Notes under the pieces: generated by a model
Database searches by the model: none
Seen by the model: the letters and a program-made list of their open reading frames with translations, nothing else
Told to the model about the DNA's origin: nothing
Program-made: the position numbers and the translations under genes
Source of the DNA: Anaerotignum propionicum DSM 1682
GTDB lineage: Bacteria; Bacillota; Clostridia; Lachnospirales; Anaerotignaceae
DNA: 64,000 bases
Assembly (NCBI RefSeq): GCF_001561955.1
Contig: NZ_CP014223.1
Span: forward strand, 2,232,001-2,296,000
Direction: 5' to 3'
Shown: positions 3,989 to 40,263 of the stretch, in pieces
Layout: each line of letters starts with the position of its first letter
Numbering within the stretch: the stretch's first letter is position 1

Positions 3989-4669
3989 ATGTTCGCTTTT
4001 TTTGCTGTTTTGCCATTTTTATTTGCCTTTTCCTCTTCCGGCGCATTTCCAAAACCACTATCAAAAGAAGATGAGGCCTACTATTTAAAACTTTATCAAT
4101 CAGGAACCCAGGAAGAAAAAAAAGAAGCTAAAGATAAGTTGATTCTTCATAACCTTCGATTAGTGGCTCACATCGCAAAAAAATATTCCGGCAGTGCAAG
4201 AGAACCCGAAGAACTCATTTCAATAGGCATTATCGGTCTCATCAAAGCCGTAGATTCCTATAACGTAGAAAAAAATGTGCGGCTCGTGTCATACGCCGCA
4301 AAGTGTGTGCAAAACGAATTGCTCATGTGGCTAAGAAGTGGAAAAAAATATCAAAACGATATTTCTCTCCACGAACCTATCGGCACCGATCGAGACGGAA
4401 ATGAAATTGTCATGCTGGATATCATCAATAGTGACAATCCGGATTTTGTGGAAGCCATCGATTTTTCCATTAAATCAGAAAAAATGTTAAACGCAATAAA
4501 AACAGTCCTCACCCCCAGGGAAAGGACAGTAATTATCCTACGATATGGTTTATCCAATCAAGACATTTTAACCCAACAAGAAATTGCTGAACGCTTAGGA
4601 ATATCCCGATCATACTCTTCTGATATTATAGGGCTAAACATTTTGCATATCCTTATTGTGCATGCATGA
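3989..4669 (+). CDS. sigK: sigK 5' part, interrupted by skin element
   Basis: Mother-cell late sporulation sigma factor, interrupted. The start at 3989 is chosen because GGGGGTGAG lies 3 bases upstream. The N-terminus MFAFFAVLPFLFAFSSSGAF is a typical hydrophobic pro-sequence removed by the SpoIVFB-type protease. Regions 2 (EELISIGIIGLIKAVDSY) and 4 are well conserved up to GISRSY (codon 209, 4613-4615). There the normal VSRIEKKAL helix is replaced by a foreign tail of 17 residues. The correct ending is found at 40207-40263 in the same orientation. Unexcised, the gene encodes 226 residues with a ruined region 4.2 recognition helix. Excised, it would encode 227 residues. Confidence 0.93.
   Translation: MFAFFAVLPFLFAFSSSGAFPKPLSKEDEAYYLKLYQSGTQEEKKEAKDKLILHNLRLVAHIAKKYSGSAREPEELISIGIIGLIKAVDSYNVEKNVRLVSYAAKCVQNELLMWLRSGKKYQNDISLHEPIGTDRDGNEIVMLDIINSDNPDFVEAIDFSIKSEKMLNAIKTVLTPRERTVIILRYGLSNQDILTQQEIAERLGISRSYSSDIIGLNILHILIVHA
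4590..4640 (+). other. attL junction of the sigK-intervening element
   Basis: sigK sequence ends at TCATAC (4610-4615). Element sequence begins with the arm CTTCTGATATTATAGGGC (from 4617, through 4638). The crossover dinucleotide is taken as TA at 4613-4614. When placed next to the right end of the element, this arm forms one half of a 22-bp inverted repeat. Confidence 0.88.
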
Positions 4670-4703
4670 ATGACTGTACTTAATTTCATATTTCATCTTT
4701 TTC

Positions 4704-6254
4704 CTAAAAAACGTCTCTAAAACTCCAGACTATTCGAATAGAACCATTTTTCTCAATCATTACTTCATTAACAAAAGTCTCCACTGCTTCTCTGGTTAAG
4801 CTTGATAACAAATAAGGCCTTTTCTTATCTAATGCCTCTTCTAATTCTTGTTGCAATTCACCCAGCCTAATATTTTCACCTTGCAATGCTTTCTTTGTTT
4901 CCCCAAGTTCTCTTTGTATCTCAGCTTTTTTTTCTACAAATATCTGCTTATCTATATTACTGTCTCTATATGCTTCATATTGCTTTATCTGGGCAACGGC
5001 TATTTGTTTTAGTTTCCTTTCATTTTGCACAATTAGCCTCTGAGCAATTTGAATCTTTTCTTCTACTTGTTGGCGATGTTGTATATCCAACTCCTCATCA
5101 TACGTTAATGCTGATAATTGATTGAAACAGTCTAAAATGGCACTTGTAATACAGTATTCCTCAATCTTTTCACAATAGCAAGAAAAACGATCTGAATACC
5201 TTGAGGCAGTGCAGCAGTAGGTTGACTTAGAGTCCGCCTTATTTTTTTTGTGGGAAGCTTTTCTGGGTATTCCGTGATTACAAACACCGCACCGAACCTT
5301 TTTCCATAGCGGATATACCTCGGCGTTTTCTCTTGCATGATAGTTTTTAAACCCAGCTTTTACTTTTTCAAAGACTTCTTTTTTCACAATTGCTTCATGG
5401 GCATTAGATACAATCATCCATTCCTCTTTTGGTACATTTCTCCCCAATCTACTACCTACTTCCTTTGGTTTCACCCGTCCGTATATGCCATCCCCTATAT
5501 ATCGTTGGTCTTTCAAAATCTTTGATATTGTTGCAGGATGCCACAAATATTCCTCATTTACACAATGGCAGAAAAGCTTTTCTTTTCGAATTTTTCGCAG
5601 CAATAAGGGACTGGGTACCTGCTCTCTATTCAGCATGCGGGCAATTTCTGCCTTTGGTATCCCCAGTAAAGCCAAATCAAAAATCCTTTCCACAACAGGT
5701 GCTGACTCTTCATCAACAACAAGCTTTTGCTCCTTGGATTTCTGATAGCCATAGGGTGCAAAGGCAGTGATAAACTTTCCCTGTTCTGCCTTTACACGTT
5801 TCCCAGTGGAAATTTTCACAGAGAGGTCTCTGCTATAAAGGTCATAAATTAAATTCTGAAATGCTCTACCAATGAACTCCCCATTATTAGAAACCTTATC
5901 GCTATCAAAATTATCGTTTACTGATATAAAACGAATGCCTAAAAAAGGAAAGACCTGTTCTAAATAGTTGCCTACCTCAATATAATTTCGACCAAAACGG
6001 GAAAAATCCTTAACGATGATACAAGAAATTTCTCCGTCTTGGGCACGTCTAAGTAGTTCTGTTACCCCCGGACGTTGAAAATCTGTACCACTGAAACCGT
6101 CATCGCAAAACTCCAATGTTTCATATGATGCAAGGTATTGATTTTTTAATAAGTAATCATGAATGATTTCCCTTTGCCCTTTTATACTGTCGCTTTCCTT
6201 ACCGTTTTCATCCTCATCGGAAAGACGGAGATATATCCCAATTGTCGGAGTCAA
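4704..6254 (-). CDS. large serine recombinase A (closest to attL)
   Basis: 516 residues, full-length. It has an N-terminal resolvase catalytic domain (GIYLRLS, catalytic Ser12, Arg10; IVKDFSRFGRNYIEVG around residues 80-95) and a recombinase domain (PYGYQKSKEQK). A zinc ribbon follows (RCGVC ... YCC), then a long coiled-coil (about residues 395-480). The start is TTG at 6254, overlapping the stop of recombinase B (TTGA), with an AGGGGTGAG RBS 4 bases upstream, so it is translationally coupled. It is the only one of the three recombinases that looks complete without correction and is the best candidate for sigK excisionase, analogous to SpoIVCA. Confidence 0.9.
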   Translation of the reverse strand: MTPTIGIYLRLSDEDENGKESDSIKGQREIIHDYLLKNQYLASYETLEFCDDGFSGTDFQRPGVTELLRRAQDGEISCIIVKDFSRFGRNYIEVGNYLEQVFPFLGIRFISVNDNFDSDKVSNNGEFIGRAFQNLIYDLYSRDLSVKISTGKRVKAEQGKFITAFAPYGYQKSKEQKLVVDEESAPVVERIFDLALLGIPKAEIARMLNREQVPSPLLLRKIRKEKLFCHCVNEEYLWHPATISKILKDQRYIGDGIYGRVKPKEVGSRLGRNVPKEEWMIVSNAHEAIVKKEVFEKVKAGFKNYHARENAEVYPLWKKVRCGVCNHGIPRKASHKKNKADSKSTYCCTASRYSDRFSCYCEKIEEYCITSAILDCFNQLSALTYDEELDIQHRQQVEEKIQIAQRLIVQNERKLKQIAVAQIKQYEAYRDSNIDKQIFVEKKAEIQRELGETKKALQGENIRLGELQQELEEALDKKRPYLLSSLTREAVETFVNEVMIEKNGSIRIVWSFRDVF

Positions 6255-7207
6255 ATTTTCTCACCCCTTTGATTCATGATTCTTTGAACCTGATAAAATG
6301 TTTCTGGAGAAATTATTGGTTCATGGGTGTGTTCAATCATGTTCCATTCTTCCTGGGGAATCACTCTGGACACCCCACCCTTGTATAACACCTTCTCTGA
6401 TTTACGTTCCACAAGACAACCCAGATAACAGGGATTTTTCAAAATATTCGTAACCGTAGAGCCATACCAAAAGTCTTTATCTGTTTGATTCCACTGCTTC
6501 AAATGAAGCTTCCCCCAAGTAGGGATTCCCATTTCATTCAATCTTGCAGCAATGACAGAAACACCTAAGCCCTCAATTCTCCAGCAGAAGATTTTTTTCA
6601 CAATTTCTGCCGCTTCCTTTTGTATGATTAACTTATATGGATGGGTTTTTGAACGGATATAACCATAAGGAGGCTTTCCGCTCATAAAATTACCATTTTT
6701 TTTCTTTACATCTATGGAGGTGCTAACTTTCTTAGAAATGTCTTTTGCGTAGCTATCATGTAATATAGATTTTAGCGGTACAATCAAATCATCTTGATTC
6801 CCTTTAAAATTGCTATCAAAATTATCATTCACAGAAATAAATCTTACTTTTTTACGGGGAAATATGTTCTCCAAATACTCTCCTACTTGGAGATAATTTC
6901 TACCAAATCTCGAAAAATCTTTGACAATTACACATTGAATTCGCCCCGCTTCCACATCCTCCATCAACCTTAAAAAAGCAGGCCTATTAAAATGAGTGCC
7001 TGTTTGTCCGTTATCAATATAACTATCAAAGAAAATTAGGTCTTTCTGTTCCTCTATAAATTTTCGTCCTAGTAAAATTTGATTTTCAATAGAGCTACCC
7101 TCAGAAAGAGTATCCTCAACAGAAAGCCTCACATAGATACCTGTGTGATAGTGCATTGGTTCTTGTAACACTTCATGTTCCAAATTTTTTCTGCTTTTTC
7201 TTGCCAT
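6251..7207 (-). CDS. short serine recombinase B lacking zinc ribbon
   Basis: 318 residues. The resolvase domain is intact (TGIYVRLS, catalytic Ser29; IVKDFSRFGRNYLQVG) and is followed by most of the recombinase domain (PYGYIRSKTH). The protein stops right after the segment HEPIISPETFYQVQRIMNQR, where related recombinases continue into a zinc ribbon and coiled coil. No remnant of those domains follows, because recombinase A starts at once, so this looks like a stable short form and not a recent truncation. It may act as a partner in a heteromeric recombinase. An AGGGGA RBS precedes the ATG. Confidence 0.82.
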   Translation of the reverse strand: MARKSRKNLEHEVLQEPMHYHTGIYVRLSVEDTLSEGSSIENQILLGRKFIEEQKDLIFFDSYIDNGQTGTHFNRPAFLRLMEDVEAGRIQCVIVKDFSRFGRNYLQVGEYLENIFPRKKVRFISVNDNFDSNFKGNQDDLIVPLKSILHDSYAKDISKKVSTSIDVKKKNGNFMSGKPPYGYIRSKTHPYKLIIQKEAAEIVKKIFCWRIEGLGVSVIAARLNEMGIPTWGKLHLKQWNQTDKDFWYGSTVTNILKNPCYLGCLVERKSEKVLYKGGVSRVIPQEEWNMIEHTHEPIISPETFYQVQRIMNQRGEKI

Positions 7208-7264
7208 TTTTATTTCCCCTTTACACAGAAATAAAAAGATTTTTTGGGTTCCGACTTTCTTATT

Positions 7265-8871
7265 TCAGCCTTCACTATTTATGAAAAATTCATCCTGATA
7301 ACGCAATACCATTTTTATTTTTTTCCCATCCAAAACAATGATTTTCTCTATCATCAAAACCAAAGCAGACCTTCTTAATTCCACAGAAAAATCTCTTGCT
7401 TGAGCTTCTATTCTATATGATTTTTTCTTAAAGTTCTCATTCTCTAAATTTTCTTTTTCCAGTTTTAAACAATGCATGCATTGTTCAGTCTCTGTACATA
7501 TTTTTTCATAATACGCCTTCATATTTTGATACTCAGTCTTTGTCAAAGTACCATCTTTATAATCTTCATATATGTAATTTTTTAAGGCCTGATATTTTTG
7601 TAATTCCTCTTTTTTACAGCTTATCTGCTCCGATATTTTTTGTATTTCAAGTTCATTTGAAGCATACTTCCATGCAATGCTTTCCCCATTTAACTGATTA
7701 AAAATAGCCTTGTGCTTTTGCAATAATACCGACACAGCCTCTAAAACAGCATCCTCTCGGATTCTATGGCTGGAACATTCCTTTTTATCTTCTTTATTTT
7801 TCGCACAAATATAGTAGGTATATGTAGTTCCCCTTGCCTTCACAATTTTCCGAACCATACCGCTTCCACAACCACCGCACCTTAGCATTCCTGAAAGTAA
7901 ATAAAGACTGTCTCTCTGGGGAGACGTTCTTGTATCATTTAACATCATTTGCTGTGCAATGGCGAAATCCTCTTTGGGAATAATGGCATCATGGGTATTT
8001 TCAACTCGTATCCAATCTTTTTTGGATTTCCCCATCCTTTTTTTCGTTTTATAATTCAACGTTGTTTCTTTCCCTTGAATCATATTTCCTGTGTATAGCT
8101 CATTTTTTAATATACGGTCCACAGCCATAGGAGACCATTTTGCCTTTGGATTCAGTTTAAATGAAGTAAAAAAACCCTCTTCTTTTAATGTTTTATATTC
8201 CATGGGAGAGGGAACCCCTAAACGGTTAAGATAATCGGCAATGTATAAATTATTATATCCATCCATGCGCATAGCAAATATATTCCGAACGATCTCTGCC
8301 GCAGTTTCATCAATTTTCAGCTTATGTTTATTCTCTTCATCACGTATATATCCATAAACAGGAAATGCCCCTACAAAGTCACCACGCTTTTGCCGCATTT
8401 CCAATTGAGACCTAACTTTTATTGAAATATCCCGACTATAAGCATCGTTTAATAAATTTTTAAATGGGACAATCATGCTATTTGTATAACCATTTTCTTT
8501 AGCTGTATCAATATTGTCATTAATTGAGATAAATCGTACCCCTAAAAAAGGGAAAATTTGCTCAATATATTTCCCTGCTTCAATATAGTTCCTGCCAAAA
8601 CGAGAGAGGTCTTTCACAATAACGCAATTTACAACCCCATGTTTGATTTCCTCCAGAAGTTCCTGAAATGCCGGCCTATCAAAAGTAACTCCACTAAAAC
8701 CATCATCAATTTTTTCACTGACTAACTGAATATCGTTTTGTTTTTTATATATGAATGAATCAATGCTCTTTGGGTTTGTACGCTATTGCTTTCAATTTTG
8801 TCTCCATCTTCTTTTGATAAACGCAAATAAATTCCCGCCCGATACGCTTTCGGCGTTTCATTGCCAAACAT
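7265..8871 (-). CDS. serine recombinase C, split by a -1 frameshift
   Basis: Two overlapping frames together encode a large serine recombinase of about 535 residues. The start is ATG at 8871 (RBS AGGGAGGG), giving AGIYLRLS with catalytic Ser19. The first frame ends at 8722. The remainder (DIQLVSEKIDDGFSGVTFDR, then KDLSRFGRNYIEAG, recombinase domain, zinc ribbon CGGCGSGM, coiled coil) continues in the -1 frame to 7265. At the junction the minus strand reads A AAA AAC (8746-8740) in exactly the phase required for classical -1 ribosomal slippage. No strong downstream stimulatory structure is visible. It could be a programmed frameshift, a pseudogene, or a missing A in the assembly. Confidence 0.75.
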
Positions 8872-8951
8872 AAAAACCCTCCCTAATTTGTATAAATAGG
8901 CAGTAAACAAGGGTAAAACTGCTTTTTTGTGCTCAGAAAAATCTTGGGTCA

Positions 8952-9203
8952 CTACTTCAATCTCATATATTGCTTCATTCGCTCAGTCAGAGTTACCTCT
9001 GCCTGAGAAAATTCAATCTTAACAACGACATTCCCACACTTAAATAAATATGGATTCTTAATTTGTCTTATAAAATCCGCAATTCGTTCTTCTCTTGGAA
9101 GTTGCATTTGTATTTCAACATCATTAATATCAATCAAATCATCAAGATTTACTGCAAGAGGATCCACTTTTTTTAAGTCTTTCAGTTCTTTTGGTGTAAA
9201 CAT
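8952..9203 (-). CDS. DUF6870-like small protein
   Basis: 83 residues. The motif order (LVDINDVEI-like segment, LPREERIADFIRQIKNPYLFKCG, VVKIEFSQAEVTLTERMKQY) resembles the DUF6870-type small proteins that commonly accompany serine recombinases in clostridial mobile elements. This is recognised from memory of the family. It is the first gene of the recombinase operon, with an AGGAGG RBS 8 bases before the ATG. The function is unknown; a role as accessory or regulatory factor of recombination is speculation. Confidence 0.68.
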   Translation of the reverse strand: MFTPKELKDLKKVDPLAVNLDDLIDINDVEIQMQLPREERIADFIRQIKNPYLFKCGNVVVKIEFSQAEVTLTERMKQYMRLK

Positions 9204-9240
9204 AAAATACCTCCTAGTCTCCTACTCCATTTATATAAAA

Positions 9241-9272
9241 AACCCTCTTGTCCTATGCGATGCAAGGGGGTT
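9241..9272 (-). terminator. intrinsic terminator between preA and recombinase operon
   Basis: Stem AACCCTCTTG / CAAGGGGGTT with one weak pair, followed on the minus strand by six U residues. It would insulate the recombinase operon from readthrough of the pyrimidine operon. Confidence 0.65.
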
Positions 9273-9470: not shown

Positions 9471-10724
9471 TTATTCATAATCTTTTTTCATTGCAATTTC
9501 AACTTCCTGTCTGCCATCTTTCCATTTTACTTCGCCGGGTGTGATGCAGTTTGCAACAGGGCAAACGTTTAAGCAAAGATGACAACCAACACATTTATCA
9601 TTCAGTTCTGGTCTGCGTTTTTCTGTATTCCAATCAATTGCTTGATGTCCTGCATCATAGCAGGAAATATAACATCTTCCACAGCCTACACATTTTTTAT
9701 CATTAAAATCCGGCAAAATCTTGAAATCACGATTTAAATCTTCTGCTGGAATTACATTGCCTAAAGCCATACCAATAAAATCATCCAGCTTATCATAGCC
9801 TCTTTCATCCATCCAATGCATCAAACCGTTGGACATATCCTCAACCACACGATAGCCATACTGCATAACGGATGTGGTTACCTGTAAATTTCTACAGCCC
9901 AGCAGTAAGAACTCCAAACAGTCTCTCCATGTTTCAATACCACCAATACCCGACATAGGCACATTTTTCAGCTTTTCATGCTGGAGCATTTGTGCAATAA
10001 AGCGTAATGCAACAGGCTTTACTGCGGCGCCGGAGTAACCGGAAATGGAAGATTTACCGTTTACAACAGGCATACCCGTCATGTTATCCAAATCAATATT
10101 GGTAATGGACTTAATGGTATTGATTGCAGAAATGCCTTTTGCACCACCCTCCATTGCTGCAATGGCAGGAATAGTCATATCTGTAATGTTAGGCGTCATT
10201 TTTGCAATGAAAGGAATTTTGGTGGTTTCTGCAACTGCCTTGGAATACGCCCGCACCAAATCCGGATTGGAGCCAACGTCAGAACCCATGGCATGAGATG
10301 TCATCTGAGGACAGGAGAAGTTTCCCTCAATCAAATCCACACCTACTTCATCGCACATTTTAGCAAGCTTACGCCATTCATCTTCATTGGAACCCATAAT
10401 GGAGGCAACCATAATTTTTTCAGGATAAGCCTTTTTCAACTTATACATATTCTCAAAGTTCACCTCTGTGGGCTTGTCTGAGATTTGCTCCATATTCTTA
10501 AAGCCTAGCCAAGGCATTCCTTCCTTTTTCACATGGTCAAAACGGGGTGAACACTCGTCTGCAACAAAAATACCAATGGTTTTATAGAAAACACCTCCCC
10601 AGCCCGTTTCAAAGGCCTTCGCCACCATTTCATAATTGCTACCTACAGGGGATGAGGACAGGAAAAACGGATTTTCACATTTAACACCTAAATAATCAAT
10701 AGATAAATCTTTTTTAATCCCCAT
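9471..10724 (-). CDS. preA: NAD-dependent dihydropyrimidine dehydrogenase, PreA subunit
   Basis: Catalytic FMN subunit that reduces uracil or thymine to the 5,6-dihydro form. 417 residues. It has a dihydroorotate-dehydrogenase-like barrel ([17 protein letters not shown] around residue 138; [16 protein letters not shown]) and then two C-terminal [4Fe-4S] ferredoxin motifs ([11 protein letters not shown] and [11 protein letters not shown]). The sequence closely follows the E. coli PreA pattern as I remember it, including the C-terminal ferredoxins that a PyrD would lack. It starts 1 base after preT, so the two are cotranscribed and form the PreTA complex. Last gene of the pyrimidine operon. Confidence 0.93.
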
Positions 10725-10725
10725 T

Positions 10726-12003
10726 TTAGTTCACCTCTTTCTGTGCAAGATACTTCATCATCTCTTCTGCCGCAGCTTTTCCAGATGCAACAGCTTCAAC
10801 CACGGTTTTTCCGCCTAAAACAACGTCACCGCCGGCAAAAATTCCATCAATATTTGTTTTGCAACCACCTTCGGTCACAATCAAGCCTTTTTCGTTCACT
10901 GAGAAGGGTGCCAAGCTTGTCATATCCTCAGCCCCTTGTCCAATGGCAAAAACAACGGTGTCTACAGCAACCTTCGCTTCGGATTCCCCATCTCTACCAT
11001 TGAACTTCATGGCTTCTACCTTATCCGTACCTACTACCTCTGCAGGGGCAAAGTTTGTGGTGATAGAGATACCCAAAGATAACGCATACTGGAATTCAGC
11101 CATATCCGCAGGAGCCTCTTCAAGGGTTCTTCTATAATAAATATCAACCTTCTCTGCACCCAAGAGTTTTGCGGAAACCGCACAGTCCATGGCTACGTTG
11201 CCACCGCCAATTACGATAACCCTTCTGCCGGGATCATATGTACCCTCAGATTTTCTCGCTTTTTTCAAGAAATCCGCCGCTGCCAACACCCCAGTCAGTT
11301 TTGTGCCGGGAATTTCAGGCAGTTTTTCCATCCATAAACCTGCACCGATAAAGATTGCTTCATATTCTTTCTGAAGGGTTTCAATGGAAATATCTTTTCC
11401 AACTTTTGTGTTAAATACAAACTTCACACCTAAGTTTTTCACTGTATTAATATCATGGTCAACAACATGCTGAGGTAATCTTGCAGGTGCAATGCCATAG
11501 GTCAAAACACCACCGGCTTTTTCTTCAGCTTCATAAATTGTAACCTCATAGCCTTCCAAAGCAAGCTTTGCTGCACAAGCAAGGGAGGCAGGCCCGGAAC
11601 CAACACAAGCGACCTTTCCAGCTTTTTTCGTTTCAGGGGCTTTTAAAATATTCATTTGCAGAGCTTCTTCCTGTTCCACAGCAAATCTCTGTAATCTTCC
11701 GATTTCAATAGGTTTATCAATGCCGCACCTGCTGCAAGCTTCCTCACAAAGACGATCATAAGGACAGACTCTTGCGCAGCTGCCACCCAGAACATTGTTT
11801 TCTCTGATGGTTTCTGCCGCACCCTTCACATTTCTAAAGCGAATAGAGCGAATAAACTTTGCAGGATCTGTACCTGCGGGACAGCTTTTGCTGCAAGGGG
11901 CATCATGGCATAGTAAGCATCTTGAAGCTTCTTCCATTGCTGTTCTTGGCGTAAAGCCTTCAACAGCCTCAGAAACATACGTTGATTTAATTACTTTACT
12001 CAA
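10726..12003 (-). CDS. preT: dihydropyrimidine dehydrogenase, PreT subunit (NADH/FAD)
   Basis: Electron-input subunit that passes NADH electrons to PreA. It has an N-terminal Fe-S region ([34 protein letters not shown]) followed by a GltD-like FAD/NAD(P) oxidoreductase with two dinucleotide-binding folds ([28 protein letters not shown]). About 425 residues, normal for PreT. Both possible starts are TTG (12012 or 12003). 12003 is preferred because GAGGAG sits 9 bases upstream. The 290-base leader separating it from the upstream hydrolase contains two adjacent hairpins, so its expression may be adjusted separately. Confidence 0.92.
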
Positions 12004-12192
12004 ATTCCTCAACTCCTCTCATATCTTCAGGCTACAAATTATATCAACCTGAACTTTCACCCAATTCTGTTTTTTCTGGAATAAACTGAAAATGAATCAC
12101 ATTTTTCTTTCTGTATCAATAAAATTCAGTCACTGAAGCATAAGAAATTATTTTCATCTTTAAAAATCATTTCCCACTCAGTCATTCCATAC

Positions 12193-12265
12193 CCCTCTTT
12201 CTTTTTTATTATCATTAAAAATGTGATGAAAGAGGGAGGCGCCTCAAAATTTTCAGACGCCTCCC
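12193..12265 (-). promoter_or_regulatory. two adjacent hairpins in the preT leader
   Basis: On the minus strand GGGAGGCG/CGCCTCCC (12265-12234) forms an 8-bp GC-rich stem followed by a U-rich stretch. CCCTCTTTC/GAAAGAGGG (12236-12193) forms a second stem that shares three bases with the first. This could be a terminator after the amidohydrolase gene or an attenuator. No known riboswitch was recognised. The rest of the 12013-12302 gap shows nothing distinctive. Confidence 0.45.
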
Positions 12266-12302
12266 GGCAGTCTTAGTCATAAAAAATGATAAGTTTCAAA
12301 AA

Positions 12303-13568: not shown

Positions 13569-13742
13569 TCATTCCTTCTTTCTATATTTTTTCTCTTTAT
13601 TTAACGGGCTTTTAGGGATTATCCGCTTCCAAAACGGTATCCCCAGTTGTATTGCAATCAATCCCAATAGGCAATACAGAGGTGCAATATACACTGTCCG
13701 TTATGAACGAATCTTCAAAACACATTGATGATGAAACAATTG

Positions 13743-15341: not shown

Positions 15342-15355
15342 ATAACCCTCTCCAT

Positions 15356-29706: not shown

Positions 29707-29741
29707 TTACATCTCCCCTTTCCACTGATGGAAATTGTTTC

Positions 29742-30788: not shown

Positions 30789-32496
30789 AAGCATAATCCT
30801 CTGAATTCGTTATTCTTTTTGCTTCATCAACGGTGGTTACACCTTCCAAAACCAATCTCCTGCAATTGTCTGCTAGGGATACAAACTTCTTATCACTTTG
30901 TATTATATCCGCTAATTCTTCTCTTTTTGCACCAGATGCCATGGCATTTTTCACTTTTCTATCCATAACCAAAATCTCAAACACTGCAACTCTTCCTCGA
31001 TATCCCGTATTAAAGCACAACGGACAACCATCTCCATGATAAAACTTATGATTGATCTCTTGAGATAGACCAATGCTTGCCAATTCTTCCGAAGAAGGCG
31101 CATATTCCTTTCGACAATTAGGGCAGATTCTGCGTACAAGACGCTGGGAAACAACACCGTTTAGAGCACTTGAAATCAGATAAGGCTCAACACCAATATC
31201 TAAAAGACGATCCAGCGTGGCAATTGCGCTGTTGGTATGTATGGTTGAGAGCACCAAGTGACCTGTAATAGCGGCTCTCATGGCAATCTCAGCCGTTTCA
31301 CCGTCACGAATTTCACCGACAGCAATAATATCCGGATCCTGTCGAAGAATTGCCCTTAAACCGCCGCTAAAGGTCATCCCTGTTTTTTCATTGATTTGAA
31401 CCTGATTGATACCGGATATATTATACTCAACAGGGTCCTCAAGGGTAATCAGATTACTTTCAACCGTATTTAATTCTCGAATCATTGTATATAGGGTTGA
31501 AGATTTTCCTGAACCCGTTGGCCCGGCAATCAAAACTACGCCGCCGCCCTTTTGGTCAATCAGTTTCATATACTTTTCCAAATCTTCCCCTGTTAGACCA
31601 ATTTTTGCTTTATCCAAAAGTTGCGTATTTTTATCCAGTAAACGGATAACAAACTTTTCACCATAAATGGTAGGCAAGGTAGACATACGCAAATCGATGT
31701 CCGCTTTTTTTACCTTAGCATTCGAACGACCGTCCTGAGGAATTCTGCGCTCCGTAATATCCATGCCCCCCATAATTTTCAGACGAGAAATCACAGAAGC
31801 CTGCAAATCCTTGGGCACTGTCATAACATGCCGTAGCAAGCCATCAATTCGCATTCTTACTCGAACCTCTTTTTCACTGGGCTCTATATGAATGTCACTG
31901 GCATGCTCCATCACCCCTCGTTCAATCAATGAATTCACCAAACGAATGGTTGGTGCGGATTGCTCATCATTATCAATGATATTGGACATAAAGGAATCCC
32001 CTAGAATGGCAACCACAGGAGCATCATCTATTTCCCGCTTCATCTCAGCAATTGCCCTAGCGGCGCCTTCATTCCCGTATAAAGAGGCAATGTTTCTTTG
32101 TATTGACTCCTCCGTTGCAATCATAGGAATAATACGCTTTTTGCTAACCGCTTTTACATCCTCCAATGCCATGAAGTTTAATGGGTCGCTCATTGCCACA
32201 TATAAGGAATCTCCCTCCAGCTTCACCGGCACAAGACCGTAACTGTTGGCCAGTTTTTTGGGCACCAACTCTGAAAGGGAGCTAGGTATTGATATCACCG
32301 ATAAGTCAATGGAATCAAGGCCTAATTGAAGCTTTAACGTTTCAATCAACTGTTCCTCGGAAATAATTCCTTCTTCAATCAATTCTTTTCCCAAGCGGTT
32401 CTTGGTCTTTTTTTGTTTTTTTAAAGCAATTTCAAGCTGTTCATCGGAAATGACTCCTGTTGAAGTCAGCATATCGCCCAATCTTTTAAACTTCAT
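30778..32496 (-). CDS. pilB: pilus extension ATPase PilB
   Basis: 572 residues. N-terminal GspE-N (MshEN) domain that may bind nucleotide (RLGDMLTSTGVISDEQLE), then the ATPase core with GPTGSGKSSTLYTM, DPDIIAVGEIRDGETAE and the zinc-binding CPNCRKEY ... CPLCFNTGYRGR. It overlaps pilT by 11 bases. Together with pilT, C, M, N, O, D it makes the pilus machine complete, apart from secretin genes, which Gram-positive pili do not need. Confidence 0.95.
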   Translation of the reverse strand: MKFKRLGDMLTSTGVISDEQLEIALKKQKKTKNRLGKELIEEGIISEEQLIETLKLQLGLDSIDLSVISIPSSLSELVPKKLANSYGLVPVKLEGDSLYVAMSDPLNFMALEDVKAVSKKRIIPMIATEESIQRNIASLYGNEGAARAIAEMKREIDDAPVVAILGDSFMSNIIDNDEQSAPTIRLVNSLIERGVMEHASDIHIEPSEKEVRVRMRIDGLLRHVMTVPKDLQASVISRLKIMGGMDITERRIPQDGRSNAKVKKADIDLRMSTLPTIYGEKFVIRLLDKNTQLLDKAKIGLTGEDLEKYMKLIDQKGGGVVLIAGPTGSGKSSTLYTMIRELNTVESNLITLEDPVEYNISGINQVQINEKTGMTFSGGLRAILRQDPDIIAVGEIRDGETAEIAMRAAITGHLVLSTIHTNSAIATLDRLLDIGVEPYLISSALNGVVSQRLVRRICPNCRKEYAPSSEELASIGLSQEINHKFYHGDGCPLCFNTGYRGRVAVFEILVMDRKVKNAMASGAKREELADIIQSDKKFVSLADNCRRLVLEGVTTVDEAKRITNSEDYAYES

Positions 32497-32527
32497 TTTA
32501 TCCTTTGTCCCCCTCTTTGCGGTGTTA

Positions 32528-33046
32528 CTATGCTATGCTTAATGTACGAAAAATAAAAGTATATTTTTTTCTCAAATTGCTATCGTCTTTACTTTGAATG
32601 ACATAGCTTCCGGAAAAAACGCCATCTTTATAATTCAAGGTAAAGGAATCAATCTTCATAGACGTATAAGTTCCACCGTTTATCAATGCCACCAGTGGTG
32701 CATCATCTGCACCGTCCGCCTTTTCGTCTGTCAGATTTAAATAAAGCCAGCCTTTTTTCAGTACAAAATGCCCCTTTACAACACTATAGTTTTCATTGGT
32801 AATTTGAATCTTACCATCCTCCTCACTAACAGAGGAAGAAAACCGCAGAACATCAGATAGAGCAGTATCAATGGTAGCTGCCAGCACCTCCCCCTCAGAA
32901 ACAAACAGGGATTTTTTATAAATACTTGCTGCCGCATTTACCGCAGTCGTAATTCCAATGGTTAGGATTGAAATAATCAATAAGGCTACCATAGATTCAA
33001 AAAGGGAGAATCCCCCTTTATTTAAGCATTTCTTGATTCCTTTCAT
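32528..33046 (-). CDS. minor prepilin-like protein
   Basis: 172 residues from ATG 33046 (GGAGGGTGGAG RBS). Leader MKGIKKCLNKGG is followed by FSLFESMVALLIISILTIGI, a type IV prepilin processing site with the expected Glu at +5. C-terminal globular domain without recognisable motifs. One of the operon's minor pilins, probably part of the initiation complex at the pilus tip. Confidence 0.82.
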   Translation of the reverse strand: MKGIKKCLNKGGFSLFESMVALLIISILTIGITTAVNAAASIYKKSLFVSEGEVLAATIDTALSDVLRFSSSVSEEDGKIQITNENYSVVKGHFVLKKGWLYLNLTDEKADGADDAPLVALINGGTYTSMKIDSFTLNYKDGVFSGSYVIQSKDDSNLRKKYTFIFRTLSIA

Positions 33047-33047
33047 A

Positions 33048-33356
33048 TTAAGCTCCACCCTCCTTTGTTACAGCTACATAGGAGGTGAATCCCGATCTAT
33101 CTCCATAATAATTCACATCATAGGTATAGGAAGTACCACCGCTTTGTATTGTCACTACTCCGATAGTAGGAGTCTCTCTTTTTTCCACCTTTTCCAAATC
33201 ATTACGATATTTTTTATCTACTTTTTCAGCATTCAAATTTATTCTTGTTGAGGATGCGGTCACCTCTGCCAACAGCATGGCAGAAACTGTGAGAATTAAA
33301 ATCGCCACCAAGGTTTCTAATAATGTTTCCCCTTTTTTACTATGTATCAATTTCAA
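33048..33356 (-). CDS. short minor prepilin-like protein
   Basis: 102 residues, TTG start overlapping the upstream gene by 4 bases, RBS GGGGGTG. Leader MKLIHSKKG is followed by ETLLETLVAILILTVSAMLL, a prepilin-type helix with Glu at +1 rather than Phe. GspI/PilV-like shape. Ends 1 base before the next minor pilin. Function as minor pilin is inferred. Confidence 0.75.
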   Translation of the reverse strand: MKLIHSKKGETLLETLVAILILTVSAMLLAEVTASSTRINLNAEKVDKKYRNDLEKVEKRETPTIGVVTIQSGGTSYTYDVNYYGDRSGFTSYVAVTKEGGA

Positions 33357-34129
33357 GGGTACACCCCCTTTGAAACGGTTCCTGCATCATAAGCAATACG
33401 TGTATTAATAGTATAAACAGTAACATCATAGGTTTTTGGTACCCATACTTTTGATCTTATTCCATCATCATCAATTTCAATTTGCACTTCATGAGAATCA
33501 ACATCAGGTTTAATAAGCACATCTGCCGAATCTTTATTCTGGGCGTTTACCCCCGCCTTAAAAGTTACGGTCATTGCATTGTTTACATCCGTGCTATCAT
33601 TTAGTGTCAATGAACAGGTGAGTAAATAAGAATCTCGATCCAAGGACATTTTCAACTTCACATCTTTCATACCTGTGCCTTTTATCACAAATTCTTTGGT
33701 TATAACAGCAGATACCGGCTTGGGTGTTACATACTGGGTATGAGAAGTAAACGCCTCATACACCATGCCTTGTAATTCGGCCCGCAGCCTTGCCTCAACA
33801 CCCTTATCATAGTCCATTTCCGTACAAAGCTCAGCTATATCACTATGCCTTTCAGGTCTAATTTGCAAAAGCTCCCCAAAACACTCATAGACTGTGTTTG
33901 TTTCCCAACCCTTATACTCTACCCCTCCGAAAATATTCCTGAGAAGATTTGACGCCGAGCCTACGGAGAGATACTCTTTCTGATTCTCATCCCTCTGGCG
34001 TATCTTATCAATATTTGCCGTAGCTGAGCTTAAAATGACCGAGGCAACCATAAAGCAAACAAAGAAAAGCATGAGTGCAAGCAAGATAGAGGCGCCTTTA
34101 TTGCTATTTATTTTTTTATAGATTTTCAT
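33353..34129 (-). CDS. PilX-like membrane-anchored pilus protein
   Basis: 258 residues. The N-terminus MKIYKKINSNKGASILLALM continues as one membrane helix (FFVCFMVASVILSSATAN), then a soluble domain. The KGASILLALML type of start, without a Glu at +5, recalls PilX/GspK-class tip proteins. It lies between the giant pilin-adhesin and the small prepilin gene. AAAGAGG RBS. The assignment is structural only. Confidence 0.65.
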   Translation of the reverse strand: MKIYKKINSNKGASILLALMLFFVCFMVASVILSSATANIDKIRQRDENQKEYLSVGSASNLLRNIFGGVEYKGWETNTVYECFGELLQIRPERHSDIAELCTEMDYDKGVEARLRAELQGMVYEAFTSHTQYVTPKPVSAVITKEFVIKGTGMKDVKLKMSLDRDSYLLTCSLTLNDSTDVNNAMTVTFKAGVNAQNKDSADVLIKPDVDSHEVQIEIDDDGIRSKVWVPKTYDVTVYTINTRIAYDAGTVSKGVYP

Positions 34130-34147
34130 AAAAGCACCTCTTTGTCC

Positions 34148-37100
34148 TTAGGGTTGGTAGGTAAATGTGTTATTGTTATATACAAATACATGCACTGTAC
34201 CATCCGTTTTATTTCTTAATATCACTTCATCCAAATAATACCCATTGGTTACCCAGAACACATTTAATGTAAGTCCATTTGCGTTGCTATTCCTTAGGTT
34301 CCCTTCCGAGACTGTGGAAAGATTAATCGTATCTTCACCCCATCGCCAGCCAAAATAGTTATAGCTATAGGTATATTTCGCTTCCCAATTAGATAAATCC
34401 TGTGCAAAATCACTATCAAAAACAATGCCATATGCATATCTATTACTGTAATATGGATAGCCAAAATAATTGTACATTGCAGAGCCTTGGGCGTAAAGGT
34501 TTCCTTGTGACATATCTTCAAGACTCACCATTATACCATTTGCATAATAATTTCCGCCACTGCGATACAACTTAATCGCTCCAACCTTCCCGCTTATTCC
34601 TACAGGCCAATCCCCACAGTGATCCAATGCAGAAAGTCTGGGATAAGGGTAAGCCCCACTCATGGTATTGCTCCATGTTGCACTTGTGTTGCTTGTTGTC
34701 CAAGCTCCGGAGGTAAATACCGTTTTCAACTGCGTGAGGGATTTACTTGTTCCACCAGAGTTGGTAATTGCATTGTTTATGGTTTTATCCTTTGCCCAAT
34801 AACACGATGCTGTGGTAATGCCCGTAGAACCTGTTGGAACAAATCCATAGCTCTGGGTTCCGTATATGTTGGCAAGGGTATAGCAACTCTGAACATTAGA
34901 CCCAGAAGAAGTTTTGCCAATAAAACCGGAAGCAACTGCATTGGCAGACTGCACTTGGCCTAATGCATAGCAATTATTTATGGTTCCACTGTTTCTAAGT
35001 ACAAAGCCCGCCGCTTCACCTTTCCCACTGGAAATCGCTACATTCACATAAGAATTTGAAATAGTACCGAAGTTTTGACCTACCATACCCGCACTACCCA
35101 AGTTAGTAGTATTTGTTGTAATTGTACCTGTAGCAAGACAATTTTGAATATCTCCATTGTTCGTTTTAGCTACGGCCGCTAATCCATCTGTAGAACTGCT
35201 CATGTTTATTCCAACTAGAGCCAAATTCTTCACATCGCCATTTATAGCAATGATATCGAACAAAGGCTTTGTCAAACCGAAAATACGGTTACCATTACTT
35301 CCGGTTTTATATCCATTGAAAACTCTAGCATTGCCACCCGAAATGTACCCACCATCAAATGTGTACCCTGCATTGTGAATACCTCCCGTATTTACGCCTG
35401 CAACAACATCATGATCCAGCTTAATATTCCATCCACTGCTTGCTGAAGTCATGTTTTGAAGCTGTTGGGCTGTACGCACCTTAAGAGGTGCCTCAGGTGA
35501 AGCCTGTAATGCCGAGGTAGAAAGCGTATCGGCAAAGGCTCCGTTTACATGAATTGTTCGTGTTCTAGGGGTTCTCATAGAATCCTCTGTTTCATCATAG
35601 CCAAATTGCAATTCCTTGCTTATCAAATTGTTCTCAGGGTTCAATAACCCCAAGCTTTCATCATTAAGGCTAAATAAATTATAGATTCCTCTACCTACTG
35701 CAATATTGTTCTTTAGAATAGACCCTAGCTGAAGAGTCTGACCATTTGCTTTAAAGGTTCCTGCATCCTCAAGCAGTCGAAGGATACCATACCCAGCACT
35801 TTCGATGGTTTTGCTGTTGGTTGTGTCAAAGCTTCCCACATAAGCAAGTGCATTCTTTTCATTGATATAGCTGGTTGCAAAGGTACCATCGGAATACAGC
35901 TCATAATAAGTTAAATAACCTGAATCCTTCTTTGTTGACTCGTAATACCAATCTCCATAATGAACATAGGTAGTGGTTTTTTCTCTTGGATTGATCACCA
36001 GTGCAGGGTAAGAATAAGCCACGGAATCTAATGATGAAGACCACGGATAAGTATTCCCCGAGGTAGCACGACCCGAGCCCCTTGCATCGACACCAGTTGC
36101 ACTATCTTTGCTTGCTGGAATGGATAGTGCACATAACTGGGAATAATTTAATTTGTAGACTGAAAAATCCCCACCGGCTACTGTGCCATTTAAAGTTACC
36201 CCCGTACCCACGGTATTTGTTAAGTAGTAACCATTATAAAGTTTCAGCTTATCCTGTTTATTGATTACAGCATAAGGAACACCTCTAATAGGGTATTTGT
36301 CATTATCCCATGTACAATAACTATATACATTTGTAATGACCATATTTCTACTGGTGGCTTGATTATCATAAATACCATAAATATTATCAAAGCCGGCACA
36401 AATTCCTGCCAAATAGGTGTTGGATGAGGAACTGTCCGAGGCTGATACGATACCACCGCTATAGCAGTTTGTAATAGTCCCTCTACCATTGATTGAGCCC
36501 ACCAAACCGCCAATAAAACGGGCAACATTAGAGCTTCGGTCCGCAGTAACCAGCTTACTTACCGCACTGCTATTTTCAATTCTACCAAAGTTATAACCTA
36601 CCAAACCACCCACAGCACAGGGCAGCTTAGCATTACTTTTCGGAGCATAACTTACTGTATATCCAGTTACAGAGCAATTCTTAACAGATGCATAAGAATA
36701 TGTATCATCATTTCGATATTGCTCATTATCATCGCTGTCTTTTTTACCAACATACACCAAGCCCGCCAAAGCTCCAACACCGGGATGATGTGAACCGTCA
36801 TTATATTCAGAGATAACATAACCGGATTTGTTTTCAGGATCGGAAGCAACCATAACGATATTTTTCAGAGAAGCACCCTGTACCTCACCAAAAAGGCCTG
36901 TAAATTGATATCTATCCTCATTCGTCGTAACACAGCGATAATCAATAATTTCATATCCTTGACCATCATAAACATTTCTAAAGTTACTTGGTGTATAGGT
37001 GGCTCCCGTAGGATCTGTAAACGCCTGAGAATTGGGACGCCCTATAGGTCTGTTTCGATATGCATTCCCACTTGCGGTATCCATCAGGTTATAGCTTATA

Positions 37101-38815
37101 CCGCAGTATGTCTTCGTATAAGTCCCAAAATCAATATCATTTTCCTGTCTATAATAATACCGTGTATCTCTACTATCAGTCCATTTTGTCGTATTCCAAT
37201 AATAGGCAGCACGAGCCAAAGCATTAATATGTCTTGGACTTCTAACGGAAATAGGTCGACTCTCCCCTGTTGGGTTTTTGGGAACCGCAGCCGCAGTTGT
37301 GCTGATATCGGGATTAATTGCATTTTTTGCAAAGTCAGGGCAGTAGAAAAATGTATAATTCTCGAACACTGCTTTTTCATCAATATAGCCTGTTATCGTC
37401 AAGCGGTCATAAAACCTTGCCGCTGTATTTCGGTCAGTCATTTGCAATGCAAAAGGAAGGCGGAAAACCTTGGCATTTGAAATGGTATACCTCGCCCCAT
37501 CTGCTGTATTTGAAAATTGCAAAGAAACTTTATCGGTAATTCTTTTTGCTGTACCGGCACTCTGGGTATCCGTAATATTTACCACTTTTGTCGCCGCAGT
37601 CTTTTCATCGGCAGTTGCATTATCCTTTAAATTCAAACAATAATTGAACTTCGTCAAAGAATAGATTGTCATGATGGCATAGCCATCCTCCACACAAGGT
37701 TCTTGCCGCAAGGTATTTAGTTTCCAGCTATTGATACCCCCTGTATCAAAACTATCCCCTTCTGCCATCAAGCTTGTTTCTGCATAATAGCCATAATAGC
37801 TTCCCTCTGCATCGGCATTTGCATATCTTTCATAATAAACCAAAGATGTCTGTAATTTTAACTCTGCGGGCCAATCTCCATAATGAGGTAGAATTGTTCC
37901 ATCCTCCCTATGCACCATTACAAAAGGGATGGGGTTTCCTACCAAAGCATCACTATATGGGTAGCAATTACTATCAAGATTCCCTGAAACCTTTAAATCT
38001 GGAAATCCTTTTGGCAGAACATCCGCAAAACTAATCGTATAATCATAATTATAATTTGCCTGTCTTAAAAATTTGCAATTGCGAAAGGTTGCAGTAGAGG
38101 TTCCGGCAAATCCACCCGAGGTAGCTTTATCTATAAGGCTATCCCCTCTTTGTACCAAACCATAGGCACTACAATCGGAAATCGTTCCATTGGCTGCACT
38201 TCCCACCAAGCCACCAGCATACCACTGAGCCGTTACGTCCGAGGTGGAATAGCAACTATTCATAGATGTATTTGCAGTTCTTCCCGCAAACCCGCCGGCA
38301 TAGCTTCCAGTTGCATTCACCTTGCCCGAGGCATAAGAATTGAATATCTGTCCATTGCTGTATTCGCCACAAAATCCCCCTACATACGCATTCCCCGCAA
38401 CATTCATTGCTGCAAATGAAGCTTTTGTGATTGTAGCACCACTGATTCGTCCTACCAATCCACCAACATAATCCGTTCCACTAACGCGATAGCGTGCAAC
38501 ACGGTCTCCCATATCTGTAAGAGGACGGTTATATTCATCCCTTGTTGTAAGATAAACCCCGCAATTGGTTATGCTTCCTCCTTGCATTTGCCCTGCCAAT
38601 GCACCAACATAGGCGCTCCCCGAAACACTAAAATCTACCAACTTCATATTCATGAAAGCACAATCTTTCAACTGGCTAAACAAACCAATATTATTCGTTC
38701 CAGCTATATTAAAATTCCGAAGTTCATTATTATTTCCATTGAATGTTATTCTATCAAATAATGATGGGTTTGCAATGGGAGCAAAGGTATCTGAATACGG
38801 TGGATTCTTTTTATA
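34148..38815 (-). CDS. giant GLUG-repeat adhesin part (frame 2)
   Basis: About 1,555 residues continuing, in the -1 frame, the prepilin-like protein that starts at 39975. It contains several GLUG-type repeats, for example YVGGLVGRISGATITKASFA, YAGGLVGSAANGTISDCSAY, GGLVGYNFGRIENSSAVS and IGGLVGSINGRGTITNCYSG. It is rich in Ser, Thr, Asn and Tyr and ends with a Tyr-rich domain. These repeats occur in surface adhesins. It has no start of its own with a convincing RBS. Translated with the upstream part it would make a minor pilin of about 1,940 residues carrying an adhesin at the pilus tip. Confidence 0.8.
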   Translation of the reverse strand, partial: YKKNPPYSDTFAPIANPSLFDRITFNGNNNELRNFNIAGTNNIGLFSQLKDCAFMNMKLVDFSVSGSAYVGALAGQMQGGSITNCGVYLTTRDEYNRPLTDMGDRVARYRVSGTDYVGGLVGRISGATITKASFAAMNVAGNAYVGGFCGEYSNGQIFNSYASGKVNATGSYAGGFAGRTANTSMNSCYSTSDVTAQWYAGGLVGSAANGTISDCSAYGLVQRGDSLIDKATSGGFAGTSTATFRNCKFLRQANYNYDYTISFADVLPKGFPDLKVSGNLDSNCYPYSDALVGNPIPFVMVHREDGTILPHYGDWPAELKLQTSLVYYERYANADAEGSYYGYYAETSLMAEGDSFDTGGINSWKLNTLRQEPCVEDGYAIMTIYSLTKFNYCLNLKDNATADEKTAATKVVNITDTQSAGTAKRITDKVSLQFSNTADGARYTISNAKVFRLPFALQMTDRNTAARFYDRLTITGYIDEKAVFENYTFFYCPDFAKNAINPDISTTAAAVPKNPTGESRPISVRSPRHINALARAAYYWNTTKWTDSRDTRYYYRQENDIDFGTYTKTYCGISYNLMDTASGNAYRNRPIGRPNSQAFTDPTGATYTPSNFRNVYDGQGYEIIDYRCVTTNEDRYQFTGLFGEVQGASLKNIVMVASDPENKSGYVISEYNDGSHHPGVGALAGLVYVGKKDSDDNEQYRNDDTYSYASVKNCSVTGYTVSYAPKSNAKLPCAVGGLVGYNFGRIENSSAVSKLVTADRSSNVARFIGGLVGSINGRGTITNCYSGGIVSASDSSSSNTYLAGICAGFDNIYGIYDNQATSRNMVITNVYSYCTWDNDKYPIRGVPYAVINKQDKLKLYNGYYLTNTVGTGVTLNGTVAGGDFSVYKLNYSQLCALSIPASKDSATGVDARGSGRATSGNTYPWSSSLDSVAYSYPALVINPREKTTTYVHYGDWYYESTKKDSGYLTYYELYSDGTFATSYINEKNALAYVGSFDTTNSKTIESAGYGILRLLEDAGTFKANGQTLQLGSILKNNIAVGRGIYNLFSLNDESLGLLNPENNLISKELQFGYDETEDSMRTPRTRTIHVNGAFADTLSTSALQASPEAPLKVRTAQQLQNMTSASSGWNIKLDHDVVAGVNTGGIHNAGYTFDGGYISGGNARVFNGYKTGSNGNRIFGLTKPLFDIIAINGDVKNLALVGINMSSSTDGLAAVAKTNNGDIQNCLATGTITTNTTNLGSAGMVGQNFGTISNSYVNVAISSGKGEAAGFVLRNSGTINNCYALGQVQSANAVASGFIGKTSSGSNVQSCYTLANIYGTQSYGFVPTGSTGITTASCYWAKDKTINNAITNSGGTSKSLTQLKTVFTSGAWTTSNTSATWSNTMSGAYPYPRLSALDHCGDWPVGISGKVGAIKLYRSGGNYYANGIMVSLEDMSQGNLYAQGSAMYNYFGYPYYSNRYAYGIVFDSDFAQDLSNWEAKYTYSYNYFGWRWGEDTINLSTVSEGNLRNSNANGLTLNVFWVTNGYYLDEVILRNKTDGTVHVFVYNNNTFTYQP

Positions 38816-39975
38816 TCATAACTGCTAATCATGGAACCGGCAGGCCATTTGCTATAATCATAGTCAATTGCACCTGTCTGGGTAATAATAAGTCCATCTT
38901 TACCTGTGGCAGAATAGTTTGATGATCTTAAATTGTTTAAATGGCGGACACTGGAAACAGCCAAATTTTCATCCACATCTTTTGATGCAAAAAGGCTGTT
39001 TGTAACGGGCGCCACTGCACTTCCGGTAACAGTAAGACCTTCTCTGGCATAGGTTATCGTCACTGTTGCAGTTATATTATCACCTGGTGTCAGTTTCCCC
39101 CGTGTAATATTTTGAAAGCTTTCCATGCCTCCACGAACACTATCCAAAAGAACTTGAACTTTTGCCTTATCATTGCTAATCCAAAAATCTCTACCACCTT
39201 TCAATTCAATGGTAAAGGAATGGTTTGATGTATCATCAGGTCGAAACCTCTCATCTGTAATGGTCACAGACAAAAGGATATTCTCGGGATTTTTAATCAG
39301 CTTTCTCATGCCACTGCATTCAATATCCAAATATAAATCTTCTTTATTTACCACTTTTACAGCGGGTTCAAACTTATCCGGCAGACCAATACCTTGGGAA
39401 AGTTCTGAAATCCCACCATAATAACCAATCATTTTTTCTTTTCGATCGCTTTTACCTCTTGAAGCAAGTGCCATTATATCATCATATGTAAACATTTCTT
39501 CTCCATAAAAAACGCCGTAAACATCTCCTGTTTCAGGATTTAACTCTACCAAATAATGCCCTCCCGTTTCTAAGGAAGCATTTAAAATGGAATCATTACC
39601 TATTATATAATCAATAAAAACAGTATCCGTATCCGTAAAATAATAAAGTTTTTTCCAATCATCTGTTTCTCCATCGAAATCTTGAGGTTCTTTACCTATA
39701 AATCCTAATTTTCTTTCAGAATAATCTTCATCCTTCACAATGTTTTCACAAAACGTATTTAATGTTCCAACAGTTTTCATGGTTGTAAGCTTGTTTTGTG
39801 AAACCAAATAAATCTGCCTTGCAACATCATCATACTTGGTTATCTCAAGGCTTCTTCTAAGGCCGGCTACCGCAGGTATGGCAATGGCGCAAATGACAAT
39901 CAGGATTCCGACTGCAACCAGCATTTCTATAAGGGTGTAGCCTTTTTTTTCTCTTTTTGAAAACTTATCAATCAT
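38746..39975 (-). CDS. prepilin-like N-terminal part of giant adhesin (frame 1)
   Basis: Start ATG 39975 with AAGGGGAGTGAG 4 bases upstream. Leader MIDKFSKREKKG then YTLIEMLVAVGILIVICAIA, a prepilin cleavage site with Glu at +5, followed by a 340-residue globular region. In this frame the protein ends after 409 residues, with a tail of 22 residues unlike the rest. At 38808-38812 (AAAAA on minus) a one-base shift restores the sense KKNPPYSDTFAPIANPSLFD and joins the GLUG adhesin. First gene of the pil operon. Phase variation, frameshift mutation or a one-base sequence error are all possible. Confidence 0.8.
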   Translation of the reverse strand: MIDKFSKREKKGYTLIEMLVAVGILIVICAIAIPAVAGLRRSLEITKYDDVARQIYLVSQNKLTTMKTVGTLNTFCENIVKDEDYSERKLGFIGKEPQDFDGETDDWKKLYYFTDTDTVFIDYIIGNDSILNASLETGGHYLVELNPETGDVYGVFYGEEMFTYDDIMALASRGKSDRKEKMIGYYGGISELSQGIGLPDKFEPAVKVVNKEDLYLDIECSGMRKLIKNPENILLSVTITDERFRPDDTSNHSFTIELKGGRDFWISNDKAKVQVLLDSVRGGMESFQNITRGKLTPGDNITATVTITYAREGLTVTGSAVAPVTNSLFASKDVDENLAVSSVRHLNNLRSSNYSATGKDGLIITQTGAIDYDYSKWPAGSMISSYDIKRIHRIQIPLLPLQTHHYLIE

Positions 39976-40058
39976 TGCGCTCACTCCCCTTTTCCATAAA
40001 ATGATTGGCAGATTTACAATAGTAAATTTCAATCAGTAGTTACAATAATCTCATCCAC

Positions 40059-40087
40059 ATTGTAACAAAACTTTTTGCATAAAACAA
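40059..40087 (-). promoter_or_regulatory. SigA-type promoter of the pil operon
   Basis: On minus TTGTTT (40087-40082), 17-base spacer, TACAAT (40064-40059), 84 bases before the first pil gene. It lies inside the element, about 115 bases from attR, so the pilus operon is self-contained. Confidence 0.55.
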
Positions 40088-40177
40088 CAGAAAATTCCTG
40101 CTTAATGAAAAATAGTAATATTATTCCAGATTTCCAATTCAATTGCTGTTAAATTTTTTATTATTAATCTTAAATTT

Positions 40178-40232
40178 TATTTAGCCCTTTTGTAACAGAA
40201 GCGTACGTATCACGAATAGAAAAAAAAGCATT
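40178..40232 (+). other. attR junction of the sigK-intervening element
   Basis: The element ends with the arm TTTAGCCCTTTTGTAACAG (40180-40198, continuing AAG to 40201), then CG and the TAC at 40204-40206. sigK resumes with GTATCACGAATAGAAAAAA. The arm is the reverse complement of the attL-side arm in 18 of 22 positions. Confidence 0.88.
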
Positions 40233-40263
40233 GAAAAAGCTTAATACTGCTTTAAAGGATTAA
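40207..40263 (+). CDS. sigK: sigK 3' fragment (last 18 codons and stop)
   Basis: Encodes VSRIEKKALKKLNTALKD and stop. This continues GISRSY of the 5' part at 4615 exactly in frame to give the invariant SigK region 4.2 helix SRSYVSRIEKKAL. Same strand as the 5' fragment. No start codon or RBS of its own, so it is only expressed after excision of the element. Too short to be found by ORF length, but the motif is diagnostic. Confidence 0.93.
   Translation, partial: VSRIEKKALKKLNTALKD

Follow-up and report, generated by a model that had tools for sequence, protein, structure and literature searches.

The sigK gene of Anaerotignum propionicum DSM 1682 is split into two parts by an element of 35,591 bp, and the same gene is cut by a like insert in most of the searched members of the genus. 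We consider it very probable that this is a non-phage, skin-type element that has been kept across the genus and is excised in the mother cell to rebuild sigK. The window analysed here is a stretch of 64,000 nucleotides (C1:2232001-2296000) from a genome that consists of one contig of 3,120,417 bases (G000), and positions are those of the window unless a contig or locus is named.

The 5' part of sigK (3989–4615, plus strand) comprises 209 codons, from the ATG at 3989 to GISRSY, with the pro-sequence present; it reads ...LTQQEIAERLGISRSY up to the TAC at 4613–4615. Past this codon the open reading frame (ORF) continues for 17 foreign codons into the element and stops at 4667–4669, in agreement with the original prediction that homology to sigK is lost after GISRSY at 4615. 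The in-frame distal partner that it had proposed was also found. Positions 40207–40263, on the same strand, encode VSRIEKKALKKLNTALKD and a stop, that is, the last 18 codons of sigK followed by TAA (40261–40263), and are preceded by a TAC at 40204–40206. TAC is the only sequence common to both break points. When the flanks were joined at this codon by script, they gave one SigK of 227 amino acids with its pro-sequence, as had been expected of a join at the shared TAC. The predicted size of the intervening DNA (35.6 kb) matches the 35,591 bp measured from TAC to TAC, and its predicted location in region 4.2, near the 3' end, corresponds to an insertion after nt 627 of 684.

A search of the genome with a SigK model found no second sigK. 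The other strong match, at C1:1060850, was rejected as a second sigK because it is SigE (404.7 bits, cut-off 339); its gene follows a SpoIIGA-like gene whose score is under the cut-off. The genome also carries spoIIID elsewhere (122 bits against a cut-off of 111.5). Upstream of sigK (3884–3939, plus strand) are GGACA at 3884 and CATACAATA at 3931, a putative SpoIIID box and a putative sigma-E/K-like -10 element. GGACA and CATA[CA]AAT were found upstream of sigK in seven of seven genomes (G000–G005 and G007); G006 does not have them in this form.

To see how widely the gene is split, the intact SigK of one member of the genus (G003) was used as query against 58 genomes of the family, at a threshold of E ≤ 1e-50. 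Matches were obtained in 52 genomes; the alignment passes the junction in 45 of these and ends at it in seven. Six of the seven belong to Anaerotignum, and sigK is thus split by a like insert in six of the eight genomes searched in the genus (G000, G001, G002, G004, G005 and G007), while G003 and G006 have an intact gene. A DNA search with the right end of the element recovered the missing tail in all seven split genomes; 10 of the 11 genomes searched gave a match, the exception being G006, with its intact sigK. In the six split genus members the tail reads YVSRIEKKALKKLN..L..*, the junction codon is TAC (it is TAT in most of the intact relatives shown) and the element ends are conserved. Where the element is contiguous it measures 35,591 bp (G000), 34,555 bp (G001), 21,960 bp (G004) and 20,826 bp (G007); in G002 and G005 it spans contig ends. 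That the same gene is cut at the same place in five related species suggests that the cell removes the element when it makes spores. The skin-type insertion proposed by the original prediction is thus supported by a recombinase-bearing element, a sole sigK, an exact in-frame partner and five related genomes of the same kind.

G003 has an uninterrupted sigK with the exact join TAC-GTT, and neither the permease nor a PilT was found there at E ≤ 1e-40. This genome may have lost the element precisely, a view that the trees favour without proving it. Protein trees leave its position open (approximately unbiased (AU) test, p 0.349 and 0.113), and in a DNA tree it branches among the split genomes, the deciding fork having 100/100 support; an AU test on the DNA tree does not reject a single split clade (p 0.187), and the outgroup, G006, is a long branch.

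Among the best 80 of 592 matched loci, the residues after the junction fit an intact SigK in 79 (78 by pattern and one, L222, by eye). The split one, L199, from the Lachnospiraceae isolate A75_68.CO.DSS, has its own sigK insertion directly after SRSYV (L199:10561-10700), with GAATAGGACAAG just inside the edge of the element; the sigK tail was not found within the 10 kb examined. A different element lies in sigK of G017, from another genus of the family in which nine genomes were searched and eight matched. Two unrelated elements have here picked the same sigK codons (L059, L060), an independent insertion.

Both parts of the split gene are kept under purifying selection. Over the last 200 codons of the 5' part (exon 1) in the six split genomes, mean pN was 0.058 and pS 0.623 (pN/pS 0.094), and pN/pS of the 3' part (exon 2) was 0.115 over seven genomes, the intact G003 among them; the same method gave 0.35–0.43 for the recombinases and 0.31 for DUF6870, and because pS (0.47–0.69) is near saturation all of these ratios give only orders of size. 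These data bear on the view that a plain genomic island destroyed sigK, so that the hosts no longer complete sporulation. In favour of it, no excision was observed, and of the G000 recombinases one is frame-broken and one short. However, the reading frame and low pN/pS are retained in both parts across six species, which makes it unlikely that the pieces are pseudogene halves, and the sigK promoter region is kept. Furthermore, another member of the genus, A. neopropionicum, has been described as an endospore former (PMC4832152), a description not tied to a particular genome compared here. We therefore regard a destroyed sigK as very unlikely.

The element ends look like the site of a serine recombinase. 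The left site, attL (4613–4640), comprises the TAC core and the left arm TCTTCTGATATTATAGGGCTAAAC; the right site, attR (40157–40206), comprises the right arm TTTAGCCCTTTTGTAACAGAAGCG and the core. Both show inverted repeats about a short repeated core, which is just TAC. When the element ends are joined, as they would be in a circle, the junction is an imperfect, attP-like palindrome whose centre is the TA of the core. About this centre, complementary bases occupy 15–18 of the 22 outward positions in each of the six genomes, compared to 1–9 for seven other centres tested.

Beside the 5' part of sigK, on the minus strand and running towards it, lie a DUF6870 gene and three tandem large serine recombinase (LSR) genes. 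DUF6870 (8952–9203; 83 amino acids, 99.3 bits against a cut-off of 24.4) heads the operon and is followed by LSR3 (7265–8952), which is present as two frames (8722–8952 and 7265–8617) and is whole in four relatives, LSR2 (6251–7207; 318 amino acids), which is without a C-terminal part present in three relatives, and LSR1 (4704–6254), which is full length. It is thus LSR1 that adjoins the 5' part on the element, in the opposite orientation. The recombinases are on average 53–61% identical among themselves. LSR1 has 510–532 residues and is full length with its motifs kept in all six split genomes, LSR2 has 318 residues in G000 and 327 in G001 compared to 479–549 in the three others read, and LSR3 is frame-broken in G000; on this basis LSR1 is the likeliest excisionase. 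The set as a whole seems to erode (the break in LSR3 is at 8617–8722, and LSR2 is short in two genomes) while LSR1 remains whole.

DUF6870 precedes tandem recombinases at three of three places in G000 and at 14 of 14 viral loci, with three recombinases in 13 of the latter and two in one locus cut by a contig end. This constant association makes DUF6870 a candidate directionality factor, like CD1234 of Clostridioides difficile and GirX of the gin element. Its structure was predicted with a mean pLDDT of 77.5 and a pTM of 0.51. The further DUF6870 and three-recombinase modules of G000 are at L160:7404-12711 and L161:6193-11500 (~1.86 and ~1.93 Mb) and adjoin genes that, by eye, resemble defence genes (AAA/OLD-type ATPases, helicase).

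Upstream of DUF6870 is a conserved block of 30 bases, ATAGGACAAG...TTTTTTATATAAAT (9229–9258, minus strand). In the form ATAGGAC[AG]A...TTTTTTATATAAAT it is matched at no fewer than 26 of 30 bases in all six split genomes; the best of 20 shuffles gave 17, or 16 with the last 75 bases left out. It fits a layout of ATA, ~16 bases and ATATAAAT, in which the spacer contains GGACAAG or a close variant. The block may thus be a sigma-E/SpoIIID promoter. The literature search gave no paper linking a GGACAAG box to SpoIIID, and the motif is not met in the part of PMC517825 available to us. Both paralogous modules of G000 are without the block and carry an inverted ACTTGTCC.

The same block could instead be merely the terminator of the upstream operon, in which case the recombinases would always be made and another factor would set the mother-cell timing. 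In four of the six genomes it forms a hairpin followed by a T run (z -3.0 to -6.0), three pairs of which show changes on both sides, and in C. difficile the available part of PMC5025042 describes CD1231 as constitutive and CD1234 as regulated. In G001 and G004, however, the hairpin does not stand out from shuffled sequences (z -0.13 and 0.81), although the block is retained, and all six genomes share an identical ATAGGAC loop and an identical ATATAAAT behind the T run. A terminator alone is therefore possible but doubtful in our view, and the block looks like a putative promoter, a terminator or both.

The remainder of the element carries catabolic and pilus genes. The first catabolic group (9471–16726, minus strand) encodes PreA, a PreT-like protein, a carbamoylase-type amidase, an NCS1 permease and dihydropyrimidinase. 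PreA and dihydropyrimidinase exceed their NCBIfam cut-offs, the PreT-like protein is below every cut-off shown, and the amidase also exceeds the cut-off of the allantoate amidohydrolase subfamily. After a MerR-type regulator (17326–18231, plus strand) comes a second group (18586–24403, minus strand) of nitroreductase-like, beta-alanyl-CoA ammonia-lyase-like (a weak likeness, E 2.6e-7), small unassigned-protein and CoA transferase III genes and AcrA, AcrB and AcrC, the acryloyl-CoA reductase, all three of which score above their cut-offs. The next AcrC-like copy in G000 reaches 522 against a cut-off of 640, and the genome's AcrC set consists of one close AcrC and two others at 55% and 45% identity. 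This does not fit the three identical acr clusters described for A. propionicum, whose published G+C content for DSM 1682 (44.08%) also departs from the 38–40% seen here. Judging by the family names, the cargo could probably convert uracil via beta-alanine and acryloyl-CoA to propionyl-CoA. The rest is a type IV pilus operon (24699–40032, minus strand) for PilM, PilC, PilT, PilB, a prepilin peptidase, prepilin-like proteins and a GLUG protein; PilT is above its NCBIfam cut-off, and PilB and PilM are below theirs. The GLUG-repeat protein, of 1511 amino acids (34148–38683), lies between prepilin-like genes and has shorter matches in G001 and G005. On the other side of the 5' part, sigK is flanked by the spoIIA operon (sigF, spoIIAB and spoIIAA; 2282–3783, minus strand), in which spoIIAB scores 191.6 against a cut-off of 135 and sigF and spoIIAA are best matches that fall slightly under their cut-offs.

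The catabolic cluster is within the element in all six split genomes (contig ends cut it in G002). The pilus operon is inside the element in four of the six; G004 and G007 are without one there and elsewhere have only a PilT relative of 43–47% identity. G006, with its intact sigK, has most of the catabolic cluster at a locus away from sigK (L133, ~1.596–1.616 Mb); the gene order is the same, PreA and PreT are missing, and no recombinase or DUF6870 match was seen in the 20 kb read. Relative to G000, and with G006 left out, catabolic cargo proteins are 80–95% identical and the genes flanking the element 75–93%. As these identities are alike, the island looks inherited, not re-acquired.

This pattern also bears on whether the element is an active mobile island for which sigK is the attachment site and which leaves occasionally for its own transfer, with no sporulation switch. 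Such a life would fit the presence of the DUF6870 and three-recombinase module at two more places in G000 and in 14 viral contigs. However, the similar divergence of cargo and flanks points to vertical inheritance, no transfer gene turned up among the 31 element ORFs scanned, and the promoter-like block common to the copies linked to sigK is missing from the two paralogous modules. We consider a purely mobile island unlikely. No phage structural family was detected among the same 31 ORFs, scanned with Pfam or NCBIfam (and with PHROGs for three ORFs). With no phage genes in the scan and several serine recombinases, as in the gin type, the element is skin-like and non-phage.

For excision of a skin-type element we infer the event itself, its timing and cell type, the recombinase that acts, the role of DUF6870 and the promoter reading, as follows. 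During growth, and in the chromosome bound for the spore, sigK would stay split. Sigma-E together with SpoIIID would turn on both sigK and the recombinase operon (DUF6870-LSR3-LSR2-LSR1) in the mother cell, where one of the large serine recombinases, LSR1 being the most likely, would recombine attL with attR at the shared TAC; its directionality factor would be DUF6870 or some other protein of the element. The 35.6-kb circle would then leave, restoring the 227-codon frame of pro-sigma-K with the junction SRSYVSRIEKKAL. The spore would retain the element and inherit its catabolic and pilus genes, both of which the mother cell would discard. Several points weigh against this scheme. The excised junction has not been seen: viral contigs were searched with a 33-base circle junction of G000, which gave no match, and then with a 16-base version, for which the 28 matching viral stretches had none of the tested arm motifs and were taken as chance. 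The rebuilt attB lacks the palindrome peak, and the central dinucleotide would be TA, a palindrome, which is unusual for directional control. The predicted fold of DUF6870 matched no PDB entry at E 0.001 (the best hit had E 1.2). To these are added the broken LSR3 and short LSR2 of G000, the hairpin and T run in four of the six blocks, and the near saturation of pS.

A fuller history is quite possible, and we put it forward tentatively. A module of mobile origin, made up of DUF6870 and the three recombinases, would have been rewired to sigma-E/SpoIIID inside sigK, and a type IV pilus operon would have settled there together with a host uracil-to-propionate cluster (with the sole acryloyl-CoA reductase seen over the family cut-off), to be discarded by the mother cell and kept by the spore; DUF6870 would then be a new family of directionality factors. 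Insertions in sigK are usually taken for defective prophages or stray islands. The present element occurs in most of the genus members searched, has diverged alongside its hosts and includes genes for catabolism and pili, so that loss of this DNA by the mother cell would also be a loss of metabolism. If our reading is true, a developmentally excised element would be a lasting home of the genus's own energy metabolism. Why a split sigK is kept could be studied by comparison within the genus, which has six split genes, an empty site in the near relative G003 and, in the more distant G006, most of the cluster outside sigK. DUF6870 in turn becomes a testable partner of three-recombinase modules in other contigs.

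The literature search found no paper naming both sigK and Anaerotignum, and comparison was made with systems described in other genera, as given in the available parts of the sources cited. One close parallel is gin, in gerE of Bacillus cereus ATCC10987, which is non-phage and excised in sporulation (PMC5595907). Like the present element, it is a non-phage island in a gene for a mother-cell regulator, with three serine recombinases and a small factor, GirX; it differs in its gerE target, its 9 bp core, its restriction-modification and recJ cargo, and in that girA and girB lie apart from girC and are dispensable (PMC5595907). Island IV of B. cereus biovar anthracis, of 22 kb, is likewise a non-phage sigK insertion excised in sporulation, with a recombinase beside and opposite the 5' fragment (PMC10745906). 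In contrast to the element described here, it has one putative recombinase and a type I restriction-modification cargo, and lies at nt 195 of sigK compared to nt 627 of 684. In B. cereus AH820, a phage-bearing insertion is at nt 423 (PMC10745906).

Two prophage-like skin elements were compared as well. The skinCd element of C. difficile shares the split sigK and a large serine recombinase, and its small factor CD1234 (72 amino acids) is controlled by sigma-E and SpoIIID; however, it is prophage-like, 14.6 kb long and linked to a sigma-K without pro-sequence (PMC5025042), and it has another position in sigK and the opposite orientation (PMC10745906). The skin element of B. subtilis shares the split sigK, the pro-sequence, SpoIIID control and a recombinase beside the 5' fragment, which there too lies opposite to it, but is 48 kb long, prophage-like and inserted at another position (PMC10745906, PMC5025042). 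Within the family, the element of G017 splits sigK after the same SRSY and has a large serine recombinase beside the 5' part; it differs in its TATGT core, in having one recombinase seen and in genes that by eye are type I restriction-modification-, Fic- and ParA-like. Insertions in sigK, including non-phage ones, are already known, and what sets this element apart from the published cases cited is the genus-wide presence, the DUF6870 and three-recombinase module, the site in region 4.2 and a cargo of catabolic and pilus genes.

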